A DNA stretch of 32,457 nt. Origin: a virus. The translations under genes were made by a program, and so were the position numbers. Positions 3,156 through 31,599 of this stretch are shown in pieces. The stretch's first letter is position 1; the number at the start of each line of letters is the position of its first letter. The notes beneath the pieces are model-generated. The model did not search any database, was not told the origin of the DNA, and was given only the letters and a program-made list of their open reading frames with translations. The stretch is from positions 1-32,457 of the IMG/VR virus record IMGVR_UViG_3300023184_000355. The stretch is one strand, 5' to 3'.

Positions 3156-4919
3156 ATGAAATTAAACCTCAAGCAATTCTATGCCTTCTGCTCCCAGTTA
3201 AAGATTGAAACCAAGGAACACGGATTACAGAACCTTGACCGTCTGTTGGGAACGCAGACGTATGTAATGAATGAGATTGAAAAGGGATTGTCAGAGGAAA
3301 AGCATTTCTTCGTTATTCTTAAAGGCCGGCAGTTGGGGGTAACGACTATCTCCCTGGCGCTCGATCTTTACTGGCACTACGTCAATGCAGGGCTGAATGG
3401 AACCTTGGTAACGGATACTGAGGAGAATAGGGATATGTTCCGTGGGACTCTCTCGGCCTACATGGATGGGCTGCCCAAGGAATTTAAGATACCTATCCTC
3501 TCCCACAACCGTAACTCTCTTGCCCTGAAGAATAGAAGCCGTATCTTTTATCAGGTTGCAGGATTACGCGCCAAGGGAACGCTAGGCAGGGGTAAGGGTA
3601 TTACCTTCCTGCATGGAACTGAAACCTCGTCATGGGGCGATGAGGAAGGACTGGCTTCCCTGCTGGCATCTTTGGCTGAAACCAATCCCAAGAGATTGTA
3701 TATATTTGAATCTACTGCTCGTGGGTTCAATATGTTTCACGATATGTATGTCACCGCTAAACGCGCTAGGACTCAACACGCAATCTTCTGTGGCTGGTGG
3801 CGCAATGAACTCTATTCAATCCCCGCCGACAACCAAATCTATAAGGTCTATTGGGATGGCAAGCTAACGGGTGAGGAAAAGGTATGGACGCGGGATATTA
3901 AAAAACTCTACGACATAGAGATTAATAGCCGGCAGATGGCTTGGTGGCGCTGGAAGATGATGGAGGGCATCAAGGATGAATCTCTCATGTATCAGGAGTT
4001 CCCGCCTACCGAGGACTACGCTTTCATTCTCTCTGGCAGCAGCTTCTTCTCTACCTCCCGTTGCACCGATGCCTACAAGATAGCCAAGAAGATAGACGCT
4101 GAATACTATCGCTATTCAATGGGAGTTAACTTCCATGATACCGATTGCCTCAAGTCTACCGAGCGCCTTGCTACTTTGAAGGTATGGGAAGAGCCAGTAG
4201 ATACCGCCTACTACGTTATCGGGGCTGATCCGGCCTATGGCTCTTCGGATTGGGCAGATAGGTTCTGTATTCAGGTATTCCGTTGCTATGCAGACGGTAT
4301 GGAGCAGGTATGCGAGTTTGCTACCAGCGAGATGAATACCTATCAATTTGCCTGGGTTATTGCCCATATAGCTGGGGCATACAAGAATTCAACCCTTAAT
4401 CTTGAGGTCAACGGCCCCGGTCAAGCCGTAATTAATGAACTGCGGAACCTTAAGCGACAAGCAGCCAATATGGGAACCAAGTTTGGACATAACCTGATGG
4501 ACGTTCTAGGGCATATGACCAACTACCTCTGGCGTAGACAAGACTCCTTGGGTGGGCCAACCAACTCTATAGGCTGGCTGACTACCACCGCATCCAAAGA
4601 AAGGATGCTGGCCTACATGAAGGACTACTTTGAACGCGGGATGCTGGCTATCTATTCTCTTGATACTCTGGATGAGATGAAAACCATTGTCCGTGACGGG
4701 GGAAGTATCCAGGCTTCCGGCAGGAATAAGGATGATCGTGTCATTGCCAGCGCCCTAGCTTGTGCTGCCTATGCCGAGCAAGTGCAACCTAGACTTATCC
4801 AGATGAAGATAACGCGGGATATATCCAGGAAAAAAGATGCCCACAACGAACCTGTGGGCGAGGCTATGAACAAGAACGTGGGCAATTACCTTAAAAAGAT
4901 AGGCGTATATGGAACATAA
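3156..4919 (+). CDS. terL: Terminase large subunit
   Basis: The 587-residue product carries both terminase domains. In the ATPase half, a deviant Walker A lies at residues 55-64 (LKGRQLGVTT), a Walker B-like region at 149-164 (ITFLHGTETSSWGDEE) and a motif III-type ESTA in LYIFESTARG (181-190). In the RNase H-fold nuclease half, the acidic residues are D358 (VIGADPAYG), E417 (LNLEVNGPG) and D526/D527 (NKDDRVIASALA). It is the motor that cuts and packages DNA through the portal. The length is normal. The ribosome-binding site is weak (GGAAC, part of the parS-like palindrome). Its 3' end overlaps the glycosyltransferase gene by 11 bp. Confidence 0.96.
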   Translation: MKLNLKQFYAFCSQLKIETKEHGLQNLDRLLGTQTYVMNEIEKGLSEEKHFFVILKGRQLGVTTISLALDLYWHYVNAGLNGTLVTDTEENRDMFRGTLSAYMDGLPKEFKIPILSHNRNSLALKNRSRIFYQVAGLRAKGTLGRGKGITFLHGTETSSWGDEEGLASLLASLAETNPKRLYIFESTARGFNMFHDMYVTAKRARTQHAIFCGWWRNELYSIPADNQIYKVYWDGKLTGEEKVWTRDIKKLYDIEINSRQMAWWRWKMMEGIKDESLMYQEFPPTEDYAFILSGSSFFSTSRCTDAYKIAKKIDAEYYRYSMGVNFHDTDCLKSTERLATLKVWEEPVDTAYYVIGADPAYGSSDWADRFCIQVFRCYADGMEQVCEFATSEMNTYQFAWVIAHIAGAYKNSTLNLEVNGPGQAVINELRNLKRQAANMGTKFGHNLMDVLGHMTNYLWRRQDSLGGPTNSIGWLTTTASKERMLAYMKDYFERGMLAIYSLDTLDEMKTIVRDGGSIQASGRNKDDRVIASALACAAYAEQVQPRLIQMKITRDISRKKDAHNEPVGEAMNKNVGNYLKKIGVYGT

Positions 4920-5652
4920 ACCATCAGTTGCGGTAGTAACAATAACGGCAAACAGACTAGAGTTGATTGATTGCTGCAAGGCAATAGATGAGCAAACATA
5001 CCCCGTTCATCATTACCTTATTACAGACGGTATCGTTGGTTACGATGAATACTTCCAAATGACCAAGAAGTATTGCAGCGCAACAAGAGATGTTGCCTAC
5101 TGGCCTAGACGCGTATCAGTGAAAACGCCTAATGGCGGTTCAGGTGGACAGAAGTTGTTTGCTGCTGTTCCTAGTCTGGTGACTGAGGATATTATTATTA
5201 TGACCGCAGACGATGATTGGTTTAAACCTAATCACGTTGAAAGCATGGTTTCCCTGATGGTCGAGAAAGACCTGGATTGGGTTTACTCGCTACGCTCAAT
5301 ATACGATAAGCATAAGAATTTCCTGTTTGATGACAATTGCGAATCTCTTGGAGAGCATCCAGTTTGGAACGGAGCCGATGGATTTGCGGAAACAGGATCA
5401 ATAGCGGCAAAGACAGAGGCAATGTGCAATGCGGCCAATGCCTACAACTACATGGAGTTTGGCGCGGATCGGCTGGCTTATAAAATATTGAAACAAAATA
5501 ATCCAAAGTTTGCCGGCACAGGATTGCATACCAATTGTTTTAGATTGGGTGGCAATCCAAACTCTGTATCAAAAGAATTCTTGGAGCATGGAAATAAAAT
5601 CATGCAAGAAAAATATCCAGATTGTTTTCCGTGGAACAAATGCAACCCGTAA
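4909..5652 (+). CDS. GT2-type glycosyltransferase
   Basis: This 247-residue GT-A fold protein has the family-2 start VAVVTITANR (residues 7-16), a DUTYP-like segment (AIDEQTYPVHHYLITDG, 25-41) and a DxD metal/nucleotide-sugar motif in TADDDW (99-104). The C-terminal half is less typical (FGADRLAYKILKQNN, then GTGLHTNCFRLGGNPNSV). It should transfer a sugar in the host cytoplasm. Candidate acceptors are host surface glycans, modified DNA or virion protein; the sequence does not say which. It is inserted between terL and the HTH/portal genes with overlaps on both sides (11 and 13 bp), so it is co-translated with packaging genes. Confidence 0.85.
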   Translation: MEHKPSVAVVTITANRLELIDCCKAIDEQTYPVHHYLITDGIVGYDEYFQMTKKYCSATRDVAYWPRRVSVKTPNGGSGGQKLFAAVPSLVTEDIIIMTADDDWFKPNHVESMVSLMVEKDLDWVYSLRSIYDKHKNFLFDDNCESLGEHPVWNGADGFAETGSIAAKTEAMCNAANAYNYMEFGADRLAYKILKQNNPKFAGTGLHTNCFRLGGNPNSVSKEFLEHGNKIMQEKYPDCFPWNKCNP

Positions 5653-6044: not shown

Positions 6045-6516
6045 CATATTAAATGATTATAAATGTCCAGAGCATGGCTACTTTGAAGGAACCGAGGCTT
6101 CATGTCCTGAGGGGTGCGTAGAGGGTGTGATGATGGTATTCCTCAAGGCTCCTGGATTTGTTAGCGGCAAGACCAAGCGGAATGATAAGAGGCTTAAGCA
6201 ATTAGCATTGGATTACAAAATGACTGATATTAAGTCCACCAAAGAGGGCGAATCTCAGTCGAACTACCTTGCCAAGAACAATCCTGCTGGCGCTCCGCAG
6301 GTCGATCAGCCGCGTGAGCAGCGCCCAGGTGACTCGGTTATTTGGGGCGATGGGGGGGGCAAAAAGCTAAGTATGGGCAATATTATGGGTGGCAGGGCGT
6401 TTGCTCCGGTCAGGGATGAGCAGGTTGGATTTAACCCAAAACAAAATGGGAACTTGACAGGGCCACGATCTGCGTCCTATATTCCCGACCATGAGAACTT
6501 GGCTATAAAGAAATAA
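6037..6516 (+). CDS. Zinc-ribbon-like head-region protein (159 aa)
   Basis: Residues 8-30 contain YKCPEHGYFE followed by CPEGC, a CxxH...CxxxC arrangement that could bind zinc. The remainder is low in hydrophobics and Gly/Pro/Lys-rich (KNNPAGAPQVDQPREQRPGD, then MGNIMGGRAFAPVRDEQ), suggesting a mostly disordered protein. The ATG overlaps the preceding stop (ATGGCTAA) and its own stop overlaps the portal start (TAATG). The position suggests a virion or head-assembly role. No family is recognised with certainty. Confidence 0.7.
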   Translation: MANILNDYKCPEHGYFEGTEASCPEGCVEGVMMVFLKAPGFVSGKTKRNDKRLKQLALDYKMTDIKSTKEGESQSNYLAKNNPAGAPQVDQPREQRPGDSVIWGDGGGKKLSMGNIMGGRAFAPVRDEQVGFNPKQNGNLTGPRSASYIPDHENLAIKK

Positions 6517-8156
6517 TGCGTATACCTAGCGACCATGCGGAACGAGAAACATTTTATCTCGACCTGATACAGAAATGTAATGTGTCGAAAGACGAGCGCA
6601 AAGGTGATTACACTAGCTTGCGCTCTTGGTATTTGTTTGGAAGTGGGCCGGAAGAAAACCCCGCACTCTTCAACAAAATATTCCCGCATATAGACCAGTT
6701 AACTTCATTTCTATATTCGGCAGAAACTACGCGCTTCAGTATCAACATAGGCGCGTCAGTCCATGAGAACGAACATCGTAAGATTCCGGTTCTTACTCAG
6801 GCACTCAATGATGAATGGCTGAACAGTAATGCAGACCAAGTATTCAGCACCGCGCTTACTTGGTCACTTGCCTACAACAGCACATTTATCAAACTCATTT
6901 ACAATAACGGCATCCATCCGTATCTAGTGGAACCGTCTGCAATTGGTGTGCTGCGCGAGGATGTTCCATACACGGATCGTCAAGAGGCGCTGGTTCATAC
7001 CTACTACATCACGCGCTCGGATTTGATGGCTAGGCTTTATTCGCATCCTAAACGCGATGCAATAATGAAACGCCTTACCGCCTCCTACCACGCGCCTCAG
7101 AGCGATGTTCCTGAAGGCGTGAACAGAATTCTAATGTCTCAAGTAGACAATGCCGATCCTGGTGGCATTTACGGCAACGTCAACCTAGACCTGTATGGAA
7201 TGAATCGCTACAAGGCGAGGGTTTCGGAAGATACCGTAGAGATGCGGGAACTGTGGCTTTGGAATGATGAAACTGATGATTATCAGGTTGTAACTACTGC
7301 CGATCCAGACATAATCATCTATGACCGGGCGGGTGAATCCGTATTCCTGAAAGGTGAGATACCTTTCGTTCAAGTCTGTCCTAGCCCGCTATACGACTAC
7401 TATTGGGGGCAATCAGAGGTTTCACGCCTGATATTCCTCCAAGGTATGCGGAATAAGCGGATGGACGAGATTCAAGACTTGTTGACCAAGCAAGTAAACC
7501 CGCCTACTGCCCTTACCGGCTTTAGCGGCATCTTGGATGAAAAGAACTTTGCACTTAATCGTGCCGGTGGCCTTCTGTCGAGCGATATGCCTAATGCCAA
7601 GGCAGAGCGCCTCGCCCCGCAAATGCCTAATGATTTATACGAAACCATCCGTGAGATAGACCGGATGTTTGAGGAAGCATCGGGGATTGGTAACGTGCTG
7701 CAAGGCAAAGGTGAATCGGGTGTTCGTTCAGCCGGCCATGCCAGCCAGCTTGCCAGATTGGGTTCTAGCCGAGCCAAGAAACGGGCATTAATTGTAGAAG
7801 ATTCGCTTGAGAAGATAGCAACACTCTATCTCAAGCTAATGCAAGCCTACGACAACACTCATTTTAAAGACACCGATAACAGCGTGTTCATATCAGAACA
7901 GTTCACCAAGGACTTTGTGGTGAAAGTGGATGCTCACTCCAATAGTCCTATCTTTACCGAAGATTTGAGAGCATTGGCGTTCAATCTGTTCAAGGCACAG
8001 GCTATCGACAAGGAATCCTTGCTAGACCTGCTGGAGCCACCAATGAAGCAGGAATTGAAGGATAGGCTCAAACGGATGGAGAAAAAGGCGGCTAATAGCC
8101 CTCTTCCACCTCCCAAGGGCGGGAAACCAGAACTAAAAGCGGTTGGAGGCGAGTAA
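6516..8156 (+). CDS. Portal protein
   Basis: This 546-residue protein lies just downstream of the terminase region and has portal-type features: an N-terminal wing (LRSWYLFGSGPEENPALFNKIFP), the central segment SPLYDYYWGQSEVSRLIFLQ followed by a long helix (MRNKRMDEIQDLLTKQVNPP), and the crown-side GIGNVLQGKGESGVRSAGHASQLA region. It ends in a Pro/Gly/Lys-rich tail (SPLPPPKGGKPELKAVGGE). The portal forms the dodecameric DNA channel at one capsid vertex and docks the terminase. The start is fixed by a TAATG overlap, and its own stop overlaps the next small gene in the same way. Confidence 0.9.
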   Translation: MRIPSDHAERETFYLDLIQKCNVSKDERKGDYTSLRSWYLFGSGPEENPALFNKIFPHIDQLTSFLYSAETTRFSINIGASVHENEHRKIPVLTQALNDEWLNSNADQVFSTALTWSLAYNSTFIKLIYNNGIHPYLVEPSAIGVLREDVPYTDRQEALVHTYYITRSDLMARLYSHPKRDAIMKRLTASYHAPQSDVPEGVNRILMSQVDNADPGGIYGNVNLDLYGMNRYKARVSEDTVEMRELWLWNDETDDYQVVTTADPDIIIYDRAGESVFLKGEIPFVQVCPSPLYDYYWGQSEVSRLIFLQGMRNKRMDEIQDLLTKQVNPPTALTGFSGILDEKNFALNRAGGLLSSDMPNAKAERLAPQMPNDLYETIREIDRMFEEASGIGNVLQGKGESGVRSAGHASQLARLGSSRAKKRALIVEDSLEKIATLYLKLMQAYDNTHFKDTDNSVFISEQFTKDFVVKVDAHSNSPIFTEDLRALAFNLFKAQAIDKESLLDLLEPPMKQELKDRLKRMEKKAANSPLPPPKGGKPELKAVGGE

Positions 8157-8311
8157 TGCCAATACCAGTTCAACCTAAAGCAGATCAGCCCCGCGTTGCT
8201 ACTCAGAGCCTAGATAAAGGTCAACCTAAGTTGGAATACAGGGTTCAGGGTATTAAAAGCATGGCTAAGCCAGCTGCAAGGCCGGATAAACGAGCATCTA
8301 GGGGATATTGA
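8156..8311 (+). CDS. Small basic protein (51 aa) coupled to the portal
   Basis: The ATG overlaps the portal stop (TAATG), and the frame runs 51 codons to TGA at 8309. The product is rich in Lys, Arg, Gln and Pro (MPIPVQPKADQPRVATQ, then MAKPAARPDKRASRGY) with almost no large hydrophobics, so it is probably disordered. It is followed at once by two tiny Arg/Lys peptides. Translational coupling to the portal supports expression. The function is unknown; binding to packaged DNA or scaffold is one possibility. Confidence 0.65.
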   Translation: MPIPVQPKADQPRVATQSLDKGQPKLEYRVQGIKSMAKPAARPDKRASRGY

Positions 8312-8324
8312 CAAGGAGATTGAT

Positions 8325-8366
8325 ATGTACAAAACAAATAAGCGCGGTCGTAAAACGCGTCGGTAA
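8325..8366 (+). CDS. 13-residue Arg/Lys peptide MYKTNKRGRKTRR
   Basis: An excellent Shine-Dalgarno (AAGGAG, 8313-8318) lies 6 nt before an ATG that opens just 13 codons: MYKTNKRGRKTRR. Seven of the 13 residues are Lys or Arg. A hairpin with a GAAA loop starts two bases after the stop. A near-equivalent peptide follows about 75 bp later. The strong ribosome-binding site and duplication suggest translation. It could be a DNA- or RNA-binding peptide, a virion component, or a leader peptide regulating the downstream genes. Confidence 0.55.
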   Translation: MYKTNKRGRKTRR

Positions 8367-8367
8367 T

Positions 8368-8386
8368 AGTTTCTCGAAAGAGAACT
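8368..8386 (+). promoter_or_regulatory. Hairpin with GAAA loop after the first 13-residue peptide
   Basis: TTCTC-GAAA-GAGAA forms a 5-bp stem capped by a GNRA-type tetraloop, extended by two more pairs across a one-base bulge. It lies 1 nt past the stop codon and has no T-run, so it is not a classical terminator. A matching element follows the second peptide. Confidence 0.5.
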
Positions 8387-8439
8387 AGGGTATGGCTGGT
8401 TTCCCTTTTATAACTGGCCGCTTGCTGAAAGGAAACATC

Positions 8440-8481
8440 ATGGCTCGCAAAGCTCGCAAAGGTCGTAAAGGCCGCAAGTAA
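8440..8481 (+). CDS. 13-residue (A/G)RK-repeat peptide MARKARKGRKGRK
   Basis: An AAAGGAAA ribosome-binding site precedes an ATG that opens 13 codons: Met followed by four tandem tripeptides ARK-ARK-GRK-GRK, encoded by four 9-nt repeats with synonymous differences. Eight of 12 residues after Met are basic. Synonymous third-base differences (CGC/CGT, AAA/AAG) suggest the protein sequence is maintained. The stop is embedded in a GTAA-loop hairpin. The charge would suit binding nucleic acid. No family was recognised. Confidence 0.6.
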   Translation: MARKARKGRKGRK

Positions 8482-8494
8482 TCCGTAAGGATTA
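8479..8494 (+). promoter_or_regulatory. Hairpin TAATCC-GTAA-GGATTA overlapping the stop codon
   Basis: A perfect 6-bp stem with a GNRA-type GTAA loop includes the TAA stop of the ARK-repeat peptide. A weaker G5/C5 inverted repeat (8506-8510 with 8528-8532) follows. Together these may separate the portal transcript from the promoter at 8548. Confidence 0.5.
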
Positions 8495-8547
8495 GTGCCG
8501 CGTAAGGGGGCGGTACCTTAAAAAATACCCCCCGTAACATTTATAAC

Positions 8548-8577
8548 TTGACAAGTAAGTAAGTATTTACTAATACT
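8548..8577 (+). promoter_or_regulatory. Candidate promoter TTGACA-17-TAATAC with AGTATT/AATACT repeat
   Basis: A perfect consensus -35 (TTGACA, 8548-8553) is followed after 17 bp by TAATAC (8571-8576). The spacer contains AAGTAAGTAAGTA, and 8562-8577 is the inverted repeat AGTATT-N4-AATACT. The same arms form the palindrome at 2513-2524. It would drive the scaffold and capsid genes independently of the portal transcript. Confidence 0.6.
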
Positions 8578-8599
8578 GCGAATAATTAGGAAATAAATT

Positions 8600-9118
8600 A
8601 TGAGCGTACCTTCTAACGAATTAATGGACATGATAAAGAACCAGCGCGGTAAGGCTGGCGGCCCTGGCGCTACTAAGTCACCGGATATGCAATCCCCTGA
8701 GATGGGTGTGCCTTCTACTGGCGAGGCTCCTCCGATGGGCGCTCCAATGTCTACTCCCGAAGCAAAGATGGGTAACGTAGAAGCGGCAAAGATTAATATT
8801 TCAATGGCAATGGATTTGATTGAGCAAGCATTGCCGGCATTGGGTAGCGAATCTCCAGAAGGTCAAAAAGCGCTTTCAGTCCTTCGTCAAATGTCTAGCA
8901 TCCTTGGTGGGCGCAAAGAAAAGACCAAGGAATTGCAAAACGCAGAAATCATGCAGATGCTTCAAAACTTGCCTCAAGCGGGTGGTGCAACGCCTGAAGG
9001 TAAAGCAATGGCAGCAGCACCGGCTATTCCTGGTATGACTCCACCACCGGGCGGCGGCGGTATGCCTCCTCCTCCTGGCGGTATGCCCCCAGGTATGCCT
9101 CCTCAACCCCCAATGTAA
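8600..9118 (+). CDS. Met/Pro-rich head protein upstream of the capsid (172 aa)
   Basis: The ATG follows AGGAAATAAATT. The 172-residue product has a Pro/Gly/Met-rich N-terminus (residues 20-58), a predicted helical centre (KINISMAMDLIEQALPALG, then QKALSVLRQMSSILGG) and a poly-Pro/Gly/Met tail that repeats PPPGGMP-like units from about residue 146 on. Proteins of this type are common between portal and capsid in podoviruses and remain uncharacterised. A scaffold-partner or minor head role is likely from position only. Confidence 0.7.
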   Translation: MSVPSNELMDMIKNQRGKAGGPGATKSPDMQSPEMGVPSTGEAPPMGAPMSTPEAKMGNVEAAKINISMAMDLIEQALPALGSESPEGQKALSVLRQMSSILGGRKEKTKELQNAEIMQMLQNLPQAGGATPEGKAMAAAPAIPGMTPPPGGGGMPPPPGGMPPGMPPQPPM

Positions 9119-11992: not shown

Positions 11993-12631
11993 ATGTCACA
12001 AACTCTCGGCGGTTACATCACAGAATGTAGAAGGCTTCTGCATGATGCAAATGCAAACTTCTATACTGATGGCGAATTAACGGATTACATCAATAACGCT
12101 CGACAGAGGTTGGTGCGTGATACTGGCTGTCTCCGCACGTATCAAACTTCCGCTACGGTAACAAACCAAGAAGTCTATCAATTTAGTGCGCTGCCCAATG
12201 CTGCGTATACGATGGACATTCTGAATATCAATATTATTTGGGGAAATAGCAGGATTCCTCTTAGATATTTAGCTTGGTCTGATTTCAACGCGCAATTACG
12301 TTACTGGCAAAACTATAGCGGCAGACCTGTAGCATTTTCCATGTATGGGCCTACTAGCTTCTACCTTGGGCCATATCCAGATCAAGTTTACGTAATGGAA
12401 CTTGATACGGTTATTATGCCTACCCCGCTGGTTACAAGTACAGATATAGATGAAATACCTGAACCGTGGACTTCTCCGGTAGCTTTTTACGCTTGCTATA
12501 AGGCCAAGTTTAAAGAACAGTCTTATGGTGAATCCGAGATATTTAAGCAAGAATATGTAAGGCAAGCCCAATCGGTATTGGCTACTACATATACCAGAAG
12601 GCTCCCTACACCATATAGTTCTCAATACTGA
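11993..12631 (+). CDS. Head-tail adaptor protein
   Basis: This 212-residue protein starts with a helical module typical of phage adaptors of the DUF6682 kind: YITECRRLLHDANANFYTDG, ELTDYINNARQRLVRD. A beta-rich middle (ATVTNQEVYQFSALPNAAYT) and a long C-terminal helix (YACYKAKFKEQSYGESEIFK) follow. Adaptors form the ring under the portal that joins it to the tail hub. The position between head genes and the large tail protein supports this. Confidence 0.75.
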   Translation: MSQTLGGYITECRRLLHDANANFYTDGELTDYINNARQRLVRDTGCLRTYQTSATVTNQEVYQFSALPNAAYTMDILNINIIWGNSRIPLRYLAWSDFNAQLRYWQNYSGRPVAFSMYGPTSFYLGPYPDQVYVMELDTVIMPTPLVTSTDIDEIPEPWTSPVAFYACYKAKFKEQSYGESEIFKQEYVRQAQSVLATTYTRRLPTPYSSQY

Positions 12632-28514: not shown

Positions 28515-29381
28515 TTAGCTTGTTTTGTCCGGTGAGTTTTGCTTTGGGCTAGTGTCTGCCTCCACCGCCGGAGCAGGAGGATTAATAATTTCCGATATCT
28601 CTCGGAAGAGTTTGCTGGATGCCATGATGCCCATGCGAGCAAATGGTTTTGTATTAGCCATCTTGAGCGCAATCATCTTCTCATCCTTGTCTTTGATCGA
28701 GAGTTTGCTGTTACCAAGTTTTATAGCCAGCGAAATCATGGATTCAATCCATTCCTCTTTGGTAGCAAGAGTAATGCTGTCCTTGCCAGGTATAGCGAAT
28801 TCCCAAGGTTCCGGCGTTTCATCTACTTCAGCAATATTCGCCAGAGCAGCGGCAGCAGACTCGATGGTAGGTTTAACTGGTGACGGTGTTACATCCCGTT
28901 CAACAGGTGAGAAGTCGTTTACTTCTTCCGGCGTGTATACCCCAACACAGCACCCAGGAAACACGGTGCGGATACCCTCAGATACCACCCTGGCTCGTAG
29001 CATCGCTCTCGGATAGTTCTTCCAGTTATCTTTATTGGTCAACCCAATCCGCGCAGCTTGGGCGAACGTCCAGCTAAGGGTGATGCTTCCGCCCTGCGCG
29101 TGAGAGAAGGTAGCTTTAACTTCCGTGTCCGTATACGTCACCCATTCCACCCTGCCACCCGCCATTTGAAACCTGGCGAGCATTGCATCGGCTTTCAAGG
29201 CCGGCCTACCCTGGATGATGTGATAGTCCCTCGCAGCCAGCGCCGGTGAGTAACCCTCTGCTTGCGCTACCAACATCAAGGCCATTGCTTGCTCAGGTGT
29301 TTTCATGCCAAACAATCCGCTTTTAGCTACAGCGTTTGCCATCAATTGAATCTGGTCTACGCTTACAAGTGCAGTAGTCAT
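28515..29381 (-). CDS. recT: RecT-type ssDNA annealing protein
   Basis: The 288-residue protein shows RecT-type features: QLMANAVAKSGLFGMKTPEQ, AMALMLVAQAEGYSPALAAR, DYHIIQGRPALKADAMLARF, then WTFAQAARIGLTNKDNWKNY and RAMLRARVVSEGIRTVFPGC. Residues 165-288 are variable and disordered at the end. It should anneal single strands produced by the exonuclease encoded upstream, giving recombination-dependent replication or repair. It starts at an ATG overlapping the stop of a 28-residue micro-protein gene, with GGAGAAAT inside that gene. Confidence 0.9.
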   Translation of the reverse strand: MTTALVSVDQIQLMANAVAKSGLFGMKTPEQAMALMLVAQAEGYSPALAARDYHIIQGRPALKADAMLARFQMAGGRVEWVTYTDTEVKATFSHAQGGSITLSWTFAQAARIGLTNKDNWKNYPRAMLRARVVSEGIRTVFPGCCVGVYTPEEVNDFSPVERDVTPSPVKPTIESAAAALANIAEVDETPEPWEFAIPGKDSITLATKEEWIESMISLAIKLGNSKLSIKDKDEKMIALKMANTKPFARMGIMASSKLFREISEIINPPAPAVEADTSPKQNSPDKTS

Positions 29382-30891: not shown

Positions 30892-31302
30892 TTAACGCCA
30901 GTCTGTCATATCCCAATTACCTTTGCCATGATTACAGGCAGCGCACAACACTTGTAGATTGTTTATGTTTAACGCTAGGTGCGGGAATAACTTACGGGGT
31001 TTGATATGGTCTACATTGATAACTGCGCCTGTTTTCCTTGATGCGCCGCAGCATTGACATATTGCCCCATACTTTTTCAATACTTCCATTCTCAACTTGC
31101 GCCATTGGTAGCTTTCTAGGAAATCAATTGATGCTGGTTTAGCCTTATATATTGATACCTTTATCTTGCGCGTAGGAGTAGGGGAAGTCTGTTGTCTTTG
31201 CTTTGACTGTTTGATACGGTCTTTACGCTTATGCCTTTTGTCTGCGATAGCTTGGTTATTTAATCTAGCCCTGATAGCTGCTTGTAGATTATCTGACTTC
31301 AT
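30892..31302 (-). CDS. HNH endonuclease
   Basis: From the ATG at 31302 (MKSDNLQAAIRARLNNQAIA, after GAGGG) the product is 136 residues. It has a very basic N-terminal half (KRHKRKDRIKQSKQRQQ) and a classic HNH core with zinc ligands: CxxC at 82-85, VDHIKPRK (D98, H99), N114 and LCAACNHGKG (CxxC at 120-123, N124, H125). A start at 31350 giving 152 residues (MDHHLFRLAYVREGLK first) is also possible. Phage HNH proteins cut DNA in packaging, or act as homing endonucleases. Placed alone between two operons, it may be a free-standing homing enzyme. Confidence 0.88.
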   Translation of the reverse strand: MKSDNLQAAIRARLNNQAIADKRHKRKDRIKQSKQRQQTSPTPTRKIKVSIYKAKPASIDFLESYQWRKLRMEVLKKYGAICQCCGASRKTGAVINVDHIKPRKLFPHLALNINNLQVLCAACNHGKGNWDMTDWR

Positions 31303-31599
31303 TTTCAAACCCTCGCGTACATAGGCAAGCCGAAAGAGATGATGATCCATATGTATAGACCATCAAACCTATTTCATCCATATGCGATCCTTTGCATACC
31401 AATGCGCCCTGGGGCATCCGTTCATCTTCCAGCCCGACTGATTAGCAGTCGCCACTAATGGACATCAAACTTTTTAGCTGTTCGTGATAGTCGCCGGATA
31501 ACGCTACCTGCGCTGACTTGCCAATAAAGCGCAATTACTTTTCTCCCACGCGGCCATAATCAAAGCCCTTAGTATCGCCTGGGGTGCGCGTATGGGACG
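31303..31599. other. Gap without a confident gene
   Basis: Just under 300 bases separate the HNH gene from the terminator. It contains the inverted repeat CGACTG-N5-CAGTCG (31435-31451) and the 14-base repeat CAATGCGCCCTGGG (31400-31413) shared with 320-333. Several minus-strand frames of 18-30 codons look protein-like, for example one starting MNGCPRAHWYAKDRI after GGAAG near 31424, and a TTG-started one ending LKSLMSISGDC at about 31450. None has enough support to call. Confidence 0.5.

Follow-up and report, generated by a model that had tools for sequence, protein, structure and literature searches.

Organization of the region between portal and capsid genes

Between the portal gene and the scaffold/capsid genes of an uncultured phage lie two micro-peptide genes, each with a small hairpin at its end, and two H-type pseudoknots. 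The window (the whole stretch of DNA analysed here, 32,457 bases long) is an uncultured virus contig from IMG/VR (IMGVR_UViG_3300023184_000355). Since its portal gene (6516-8156) and its adaptor gene (11993-12631) match Pfam SU10_portal and SU10_adaptor, respectively, the phage is, judged by these two proteins, an SU10-like phage with a short tail. Elsewhere the window encodes, on the minus strand, an ArdC-type anti-restriction protein (1161-2009; ArdcN and zincin-like MPTase-PolyVal, Pfam E 1e-34 and 2e-46), a borderline RecT-like protein (28515-29381) and an HNH endonuclease (30892-31350). Relatives, designated here by L numbers, were selected by portal similarity alone, without reference to the peptides. 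In the phage collection there are only two such records, MW202825 (L001) and MW202753 (L002), both assembled from Manatee Spring, while IMG/VR holds at least hundreds; the group carrying the peptide genes is large, uncultured and mostly from freshwater. Relatives of the major capsid protein (MCP) pointed to three or four MAG contigs with betaproteobacterial, alphaproteobacterial and Balneolaceae labels; as these are probably binned phage contigs, we claim no host.

All features described in the following are on the plus strand. A 51-aa ORF with a basic tail (8156-8311), whose homologue is annotated as UOF81571.1, directly follows the portal gene in the same cluster; it has no match in Pfam or PHROG. 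Next come the genes for peptide 1 (MYKTNKRGRKTRR, 8325-8366) and peptide 2 (MARKARKGRKGRK, 8440-8481), both 13 aa long and about 60% Lys/Arg. Peptide 1 is preceded by the Shine-Dalgarno (SD) sequence AAGGAG (8313-8318), a position that an SD also occupies in relatives, and peptide 2 by AAGGA (8429-8433), which is likewise supported by its spacing in relatives. A search of both strands of the window for SD-bearing ORFs in the range of 8-25 codons and with a K/R content of 40% or more gave only these two. An initial annotation of this DNA had proposed two frames with good ribosome-binding sites, located between the portal and the scaffold/capsid promoter, the second one made up of four tandem tripeptides. 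We confirm all of this: the locus lies between the portal gene and a promoter-like site with TTGACA at 8548, and peptide 2 reads A-R-K A-R-K G-R-K G-R-K, although its length varies in relatives.

The two hairpins are located at the stop codon or just 3' of it. Hairpin P1 (8367-8387; fold z -2.25) has a GAAA loop; hairpin P2 (8479-8494; UAAUCC-GUAA-GGAUUA; fold z -7.0) has a GUAA loop and holds the stop codon in its stem. The GNRA caps emphasized by the initial annotation are thus present in the window, but they are not a property of the family, with a GNRA loop in 18/49 (P1) and 16/49 (P2) of the relatives, and recognition of GNRA loops was rejected on this ground. Hairpin P1 is usual yet dispensable (absent in L196, L285 and L085). 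The description of peptides and hairpins stands, but it overlooked the pseudoknots PK1 (8387-8420), which lies after the peptide 1 stop and before the peptide 2 SD, and PK2 (8495-8533), which follows peptide 2 and its hairpin.

Ahead of the scaffold/capsid genes there is a promoter-like site (8548-8577) beginning with the TTGACA at 8548; one such site was found against 1.1 expected by chance, and TTGACA occupies this position in most relatives. Between -35 and -10 of the promoter-like site we saw an inverted repeat whose arms are 4 nt apart, e.g. TTAGTAA-TTGT-TTACTAA in L001 (8500-8530) and GTTTGTAA-GTGG-TTACAAAC in L064 (after 6814). It resembles an operator at which a late regulator would bind; the version in the window is weaker.

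Recurrence and selection of the micro-peptide genes

Among the listed relatives, peptide 1 was found at 72 loci (35 peptides, 48 DNA versions) and peptide 2 at 76 loci (26 peptides, 42 DNA versions), always at the same place and with ATG as start codon except for four GTG. A comparison with relatives at the codon level, as suggested by the initial annotation, came out clearly in favor of the frames: pN/pS is 0.37 in frame for peptide 1 (1.9 in shifted frames) and 0.34 for peptide 2 (1.8-2.3 in shifted frames), the in-frame values for both peptides range from 0.28 to 0.39, and third-position changes dominate. Chance occurrence of the frames is excluded by their recurrence together with the in-frame pN/pS, and these substitution patterns show both frames to be under selection at the protein level.

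The consensus of peptide 1 is roughly M-Y-x-x-x-K-R-x-R-K-x-R-R, and peptide 2 repeats the tripeptide X-R-K, X being a small residue. The C-terminal K/R residues are strongly kept, whereas the length and many residues of peptide 2 vary: in relatives it has mostly 10-15 aa (10 to 24 overall), with changes by whole codons, at a K+R fraction of 0.58 +/- 0.08. Charge is retained while residues drift, with K replaced by R or H in GC-rich relatives (e.g. MARHKRRHKRK, MARRMRRHKRK); the R/K ratio tracks GC content (Spearman 0.40, p 0.002, relatedness not corrected for). Pfam searches with peptides 1 and 2 gave no match at E<=10, which is a weak test, as joined or repeated peptides had to be used for sequences of 13 aa, below the limit of the tool.

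That genes this short are left out of annotations proved true for the two GenBank records: MW202825 and MW202753 lack the peptides and instead carry antisense 'hypothetical proteins' on the same DNA. These antisense ORFs over the peptide/pseudoknot region (8246-8506 minus in L001 and 4740-5038 minus in L002; UOF82412.1, UOF81572.1 and UOF81573.1) are probably mis-annotations, since no minus-strand ORF of at least 60 aa is open over the peptide genes in the window.

The arrangement reaches far into the group. At a portal identity of only 39-49%, PK1 is kept, and with it peptides like MARRMRRHKRK, MARKMRRGKRK and MARRSRRGRRKGK. In one clade peptide 2 has 20-24 aa (MMYGKAKMAPKMARMGRKARKGRK) and follows a peptide 1 of the type MNMKPKSGRKCRR, and marine relatives have just a peptide-1-like gene of 18-25 aa (e.g. 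MYGKMPKPMKKPPMRDGKRS). Three basic mini-genes rather than two are present in L041, L049 and L050, the last of which combines three peptides and a PK2-like fold with no PK1. In L294, L305, L317 and L324 the interval from peptide 2 to the following long gene also holds a further basic mini-gene (e.g. MARRSRRSKRK in L317 and MAGRRGAKRPRRY in L324). As such additional genes occur in deep relatives, the pair may be part of a larger and older set of tiny basic genes at this locus.

Two conserved pseudoknots and the link of PK1 to peptide 2

In the window PK1 reads AGGG-UA-UGGCUGGUU-U-CCCU-UUUAU-AACUGGCCG, with stem 1 formed by 8387-8390/8403-8406 and stem 2 by 8393-8401/8412-8420. Pseudoknot-free folding of the single sequence shows nothing special for PK1 (z -0.8) or PK2 (z -0.2), so that a comparison of relatives is needed to see them. 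MAFFT applied to the whole of PK1 misaligned the second strand of stem 2 owing to the variable loop 3; the PK1 counts therefore come from sequences with loop 3 cut out, plus hand segmentation. In 53 distinct sequences, 94.8% of the cells are paired compared with 84.4 +/- 0.8% for shuffled partners, and there are 66 double changes compared with 16.4 +/- 6.6. None of 500 shuffles reached the observed pairing and double changes, and slid partners pair in 37-61% only. Stem 1 occurs as AGGG/CCCU, ACGG/CCGU, CCGG/CCGG and others; stem 2 as GCU/AGU, CCU/AGG, ACU/AGU and UCU/AGA, and as GGCUGCCCG/CGGGUGGCC in the distant L284. The main class has a tandem U.G/G.U in the middle of stem 2 that is kept at 100%, a second class has a 2x2 internal loop in stem 2 and a third form is found in L042 and L049. 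No other feature of the locus is as conserved as PK1. The GGCUGCU of the common 5' strand of stem 2 (8394 onward) is complementary to AGCAGCC, presumably the universal 530 loop of 16S rRNA; a match of 7 nt easily occurs by chance.

Loop 3 of PK2 (stem 1 8495-8501/8510-8516; stem 2 8506-8509/8528-8531) is rich in A, frequently with TAAATATA or TAAAAT, and PK2 usually ends a few bases before the TTGACA (14 in the window). In 41 sequences we found 28 different arm pairs for stem 2 and 21 for stem 1, with pairing energies on average 3 sd better than those of dinucleotide shuffles; stem 2 covaries (96.7% paired, 0/500 shuffles). Covariation shows both PK1 and PK2 to be conserved H-type pseudoknots. 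Neither corresponds to a known RNA family in Rfam 15, where the window and 10 loci gave no match at gathering thresholds and 8300-8620 none at E<=10. A plain hairpin takes the place of PK2 in L268 and L063-L066, and a terminator-like hairpin with a T-run in marine relatives. In view of these substitutes we take PK2 for an element that marks a boundary or the 3' end, which is less certain than the assignment for PK1. An intrinsic terminator after peptide 2, which L001 resembles, was rejected as a general description: most relatives have no T-tract and their pairing is that of a pseudoknot. The clade L014-L028 carries T7-8 after PK2.

PK1 stands in a fixed relation to peptide 2. The distance from its end to the AUG of peptide 2 is 21.2 +/- 1.2 nt, against 22.4 +/- 3.6 nt (range 11-34) between the stop codon of peptide 1 and PK1. 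Three letter-only scans of the viral collection returned true copies of PK1 adjoining a portal gene and followed by a basic mini-ORF, unless cut off by a contig end, and about seven chance matches, all of them without stem 1, portal and basic ORF. PK1 and peptide 2 are kept where peptide 1 is lost (L031, L034, L037, L196, L202, L285), and both are lacking in L012, the marine L203-L216, L263 and L270. Taken from these genomes, the pattern shows PK1 to be linked to peptide 2 at a fixed spacing ahead of its AUG. Peptide 2 itself does not strictly need PK1, judging from extra copies that exist without it: L041 and L049 have peptide 2-like copies without PK1 upstream of peptide 1, and in L282 another basic mini-gene (MARARRRHRRK) follows peptide 2, also without PK1.

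The link extends to the peptide sequence. Traced on a tree of portal DNA from 76 loci, the class of PK1 has changed at least 9 times, and residue 2 of peptide 2 (A or R) switches with the PK1 class in 7/8 independent pairs and never in the opposite direction (p=0.016, well-supported branches). The pairs L008/L010, L014/L016 and L001/L017 have swapped the stretch from PK1 over the SD to the start as a unit. By sequence comparison this co-switching shows linkage and is compatible with hitchhiking as well as with functional matching. In predicted folds the SD of peptide 2 is sequestered in some PK1 classes and free in others, and general SD sequestration by PK1 was rejected, as the predicted accessibility is mixed (mean 0.47). 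A separate observation concerns L010, L015, L016, L018, L020 and L028, in which AGGAG, the SD, is able to pair with a CTCCT immediately 3' of stem 2 (predicted accessibility 0.03-0.06); this pairing would be a candidate second switch layer in one PK1 class/clade only.

Possible roles and relation to known systems

On balance, and with moderate confidence, we favor a reading in which the polycationic microproteins act on nucleic acid in virion assembly and PK1 sets the translation of peptide 2. Both peptides would be made late alongside the portal and capsid proteins, and would act as nucleic-acid-binding polycations, most likely on the genome during packaging or assembly, as suggested by about 60% K/R and the location between portal and scaffold; a position in the packaging cluster is of course no proof of a packaging role. 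The DNA-condensing or virion peptides considered by the initial annotation would agree with this charge and location. PK2 would form the structural boundary where the portal transcript ends, ahead of the capsid promoter. A structure ending 21 nt before an AUG lies just outside the mRNA exit of the initiating 30S subunit. From this position and the precedent of pseudoknots near start sites, we infer that PK1 could be a cis-acting translation element that sets the amount of peptide 2 by helping or hindering 30S loading. Control in either direction is conceivable, as the SD is sequestered only in some of the predicted classes. Pseudoknots near initiation sites control the translation of T4 gene 32 and rpsO (PMC3014915) and of timP and tisB (PMC11295053); those near the start sites of rpsO, timP and tisB (PMC11295053) and of T4 gene 32 (PMC3014915) act through 30S or S1 loading or through repressor trapping.

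As a special case of this, and with perhaps a minority chance of being correct, control might be autogenous: peptide 2 (or 1) in excess over DNA would bind PK1 and repress its own translation, as gp32 of T4 does at the pseudoknot in its leader. The tandem U.G/G.U, kept without exception in the main class although Watson-Crick pairs would fold, suggests recognition, and the recurrent class changes with co-switching of residue 2 point in the same direction. Arg-rich peptides, moreover, often bind structured RNA. Hitchhiking in short recombined tracts could, however, explain the co-switching, as PK1 to start codon spans about 25 nt, and identical peptide C-termini are served by several PK1 variants. 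A more elaborate form, in which protamine-like packaging peptides of 10-14 aa are metered by a peptide-sensing PK1 whose exchangeable classes (tandem U.G/G.U or 2x2 loop) represent matched specificities, would be a speculative extension to which we give rather little weight.

It is similarly doubtful that PK1 and PK2 merely bracket peptide 2 as elements of mRNA stability or processing, with no direct effect on initiation. Two stable pseudoknots do flank a single tiny ORF, and the replacement of PK2 by a plain hairpin or terminator would be possible for a 3' stabilizer; the fixed 21-nt gap between PK1 and the AUG and the conserved letters of stem 2, however, exceed the needs of a stabilizer. 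The suggestion of the initial annotation that the peptides are ribosome-stalling leaders (of the TnaC/ErmCL type, acting as a switch on RNA structures further downstream or on capsid operon transcription) now appears very improbable. It would fit that the ORFs are short, have good SDs, adjoin RNA structures and precede other genes, but peptide 1 and peptide 2 are each missing in some lineages while the remainder stays, PK1 is present without peptide 1, the RNA in no way depends on peptide 1 translation, lengths (10 to 24 aa for peptide 2) and non-basic residues vary, and the capsid genes have a promoter-like site of their own. That the locus is one structured non-coding RNA with incidental frames, as the strong conserved structure on either side of peptide 2 might hint, is hardly credible given the pN/pS (0.34-0.37 in frame, 1.8-2.3 out of frame), the whole-codon length steps, the kept SDs and start codons and the different codons encoding the same charge.

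Stand-alone genes of 10-14 codons, too short for standard gene callers to report, can thus belong, as ancient components under selection, to the assembly region in a very common phage group, next to a conserved RNA element with fixed start-codon spacing and no Rfam match. Annotators missed the peptide genes and the likely RNA switch, as the genes are tiny and the RNA element is in no searched RNA database. Given the conserved element, pseudoknot control of translation and the role of small polycations in dsDNA packaging are directly testable with a 120-nt construct.

In the literature on small basic phage peptides with pseudoknots we found no report of such an arrangement; several known systems share parts of it. 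The J proteins of phiX174 are very small, Lys/Arg-rich packaging peptides of ssDNA microviruses (24-37 aa); the peptides described here are likewise very small and Lys/Arg-rich, but have 10-14 aa, belong to a tailed dsDNA phage and are known from their genes alone. In the lambda N/boxB system an Arg-rich peptide is encoded beside a GNRA-type hairpin, whereas here the GNRA loop is not conserved, the hairpin can be missing and there is no boxA or larger protein. The packaging cluster of phage vB_EcoP_SU10 has the same type of portal and adaptor and also a small gene between portal and scaffold, but this gene encodes 78 aa and no such peptide pair is annotated in SU10. The timP, tisB and rpsO leaders share a pseudoknot near the start site, theirs governing 30S or S1 loading; the genes concerned are bacterial and encode type I toxins and ribosomal proteins (PMC11295053), and no relation to PK1 in gene, sequence or spacing was found. 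For gene 32 of T4/T2 no sequence relation to PK1 was seen either, and Rfam gave no match. In gene 32 about 67 nt, with an A+U-rich tract, separate the pseudoknot from the AUG (PMC3014915), while PK1 ends 21 nt upstream, next to a normal SD; gp32 contains Zn and has three binding domains, compared with the 10-24 aa of the peptide encoded behind PK1. In both cases the leader of a phage gene forms an H-type pseudoknot and the gene product binds nucleic acid, as established for gp32 and as would be expected of peptide 2.
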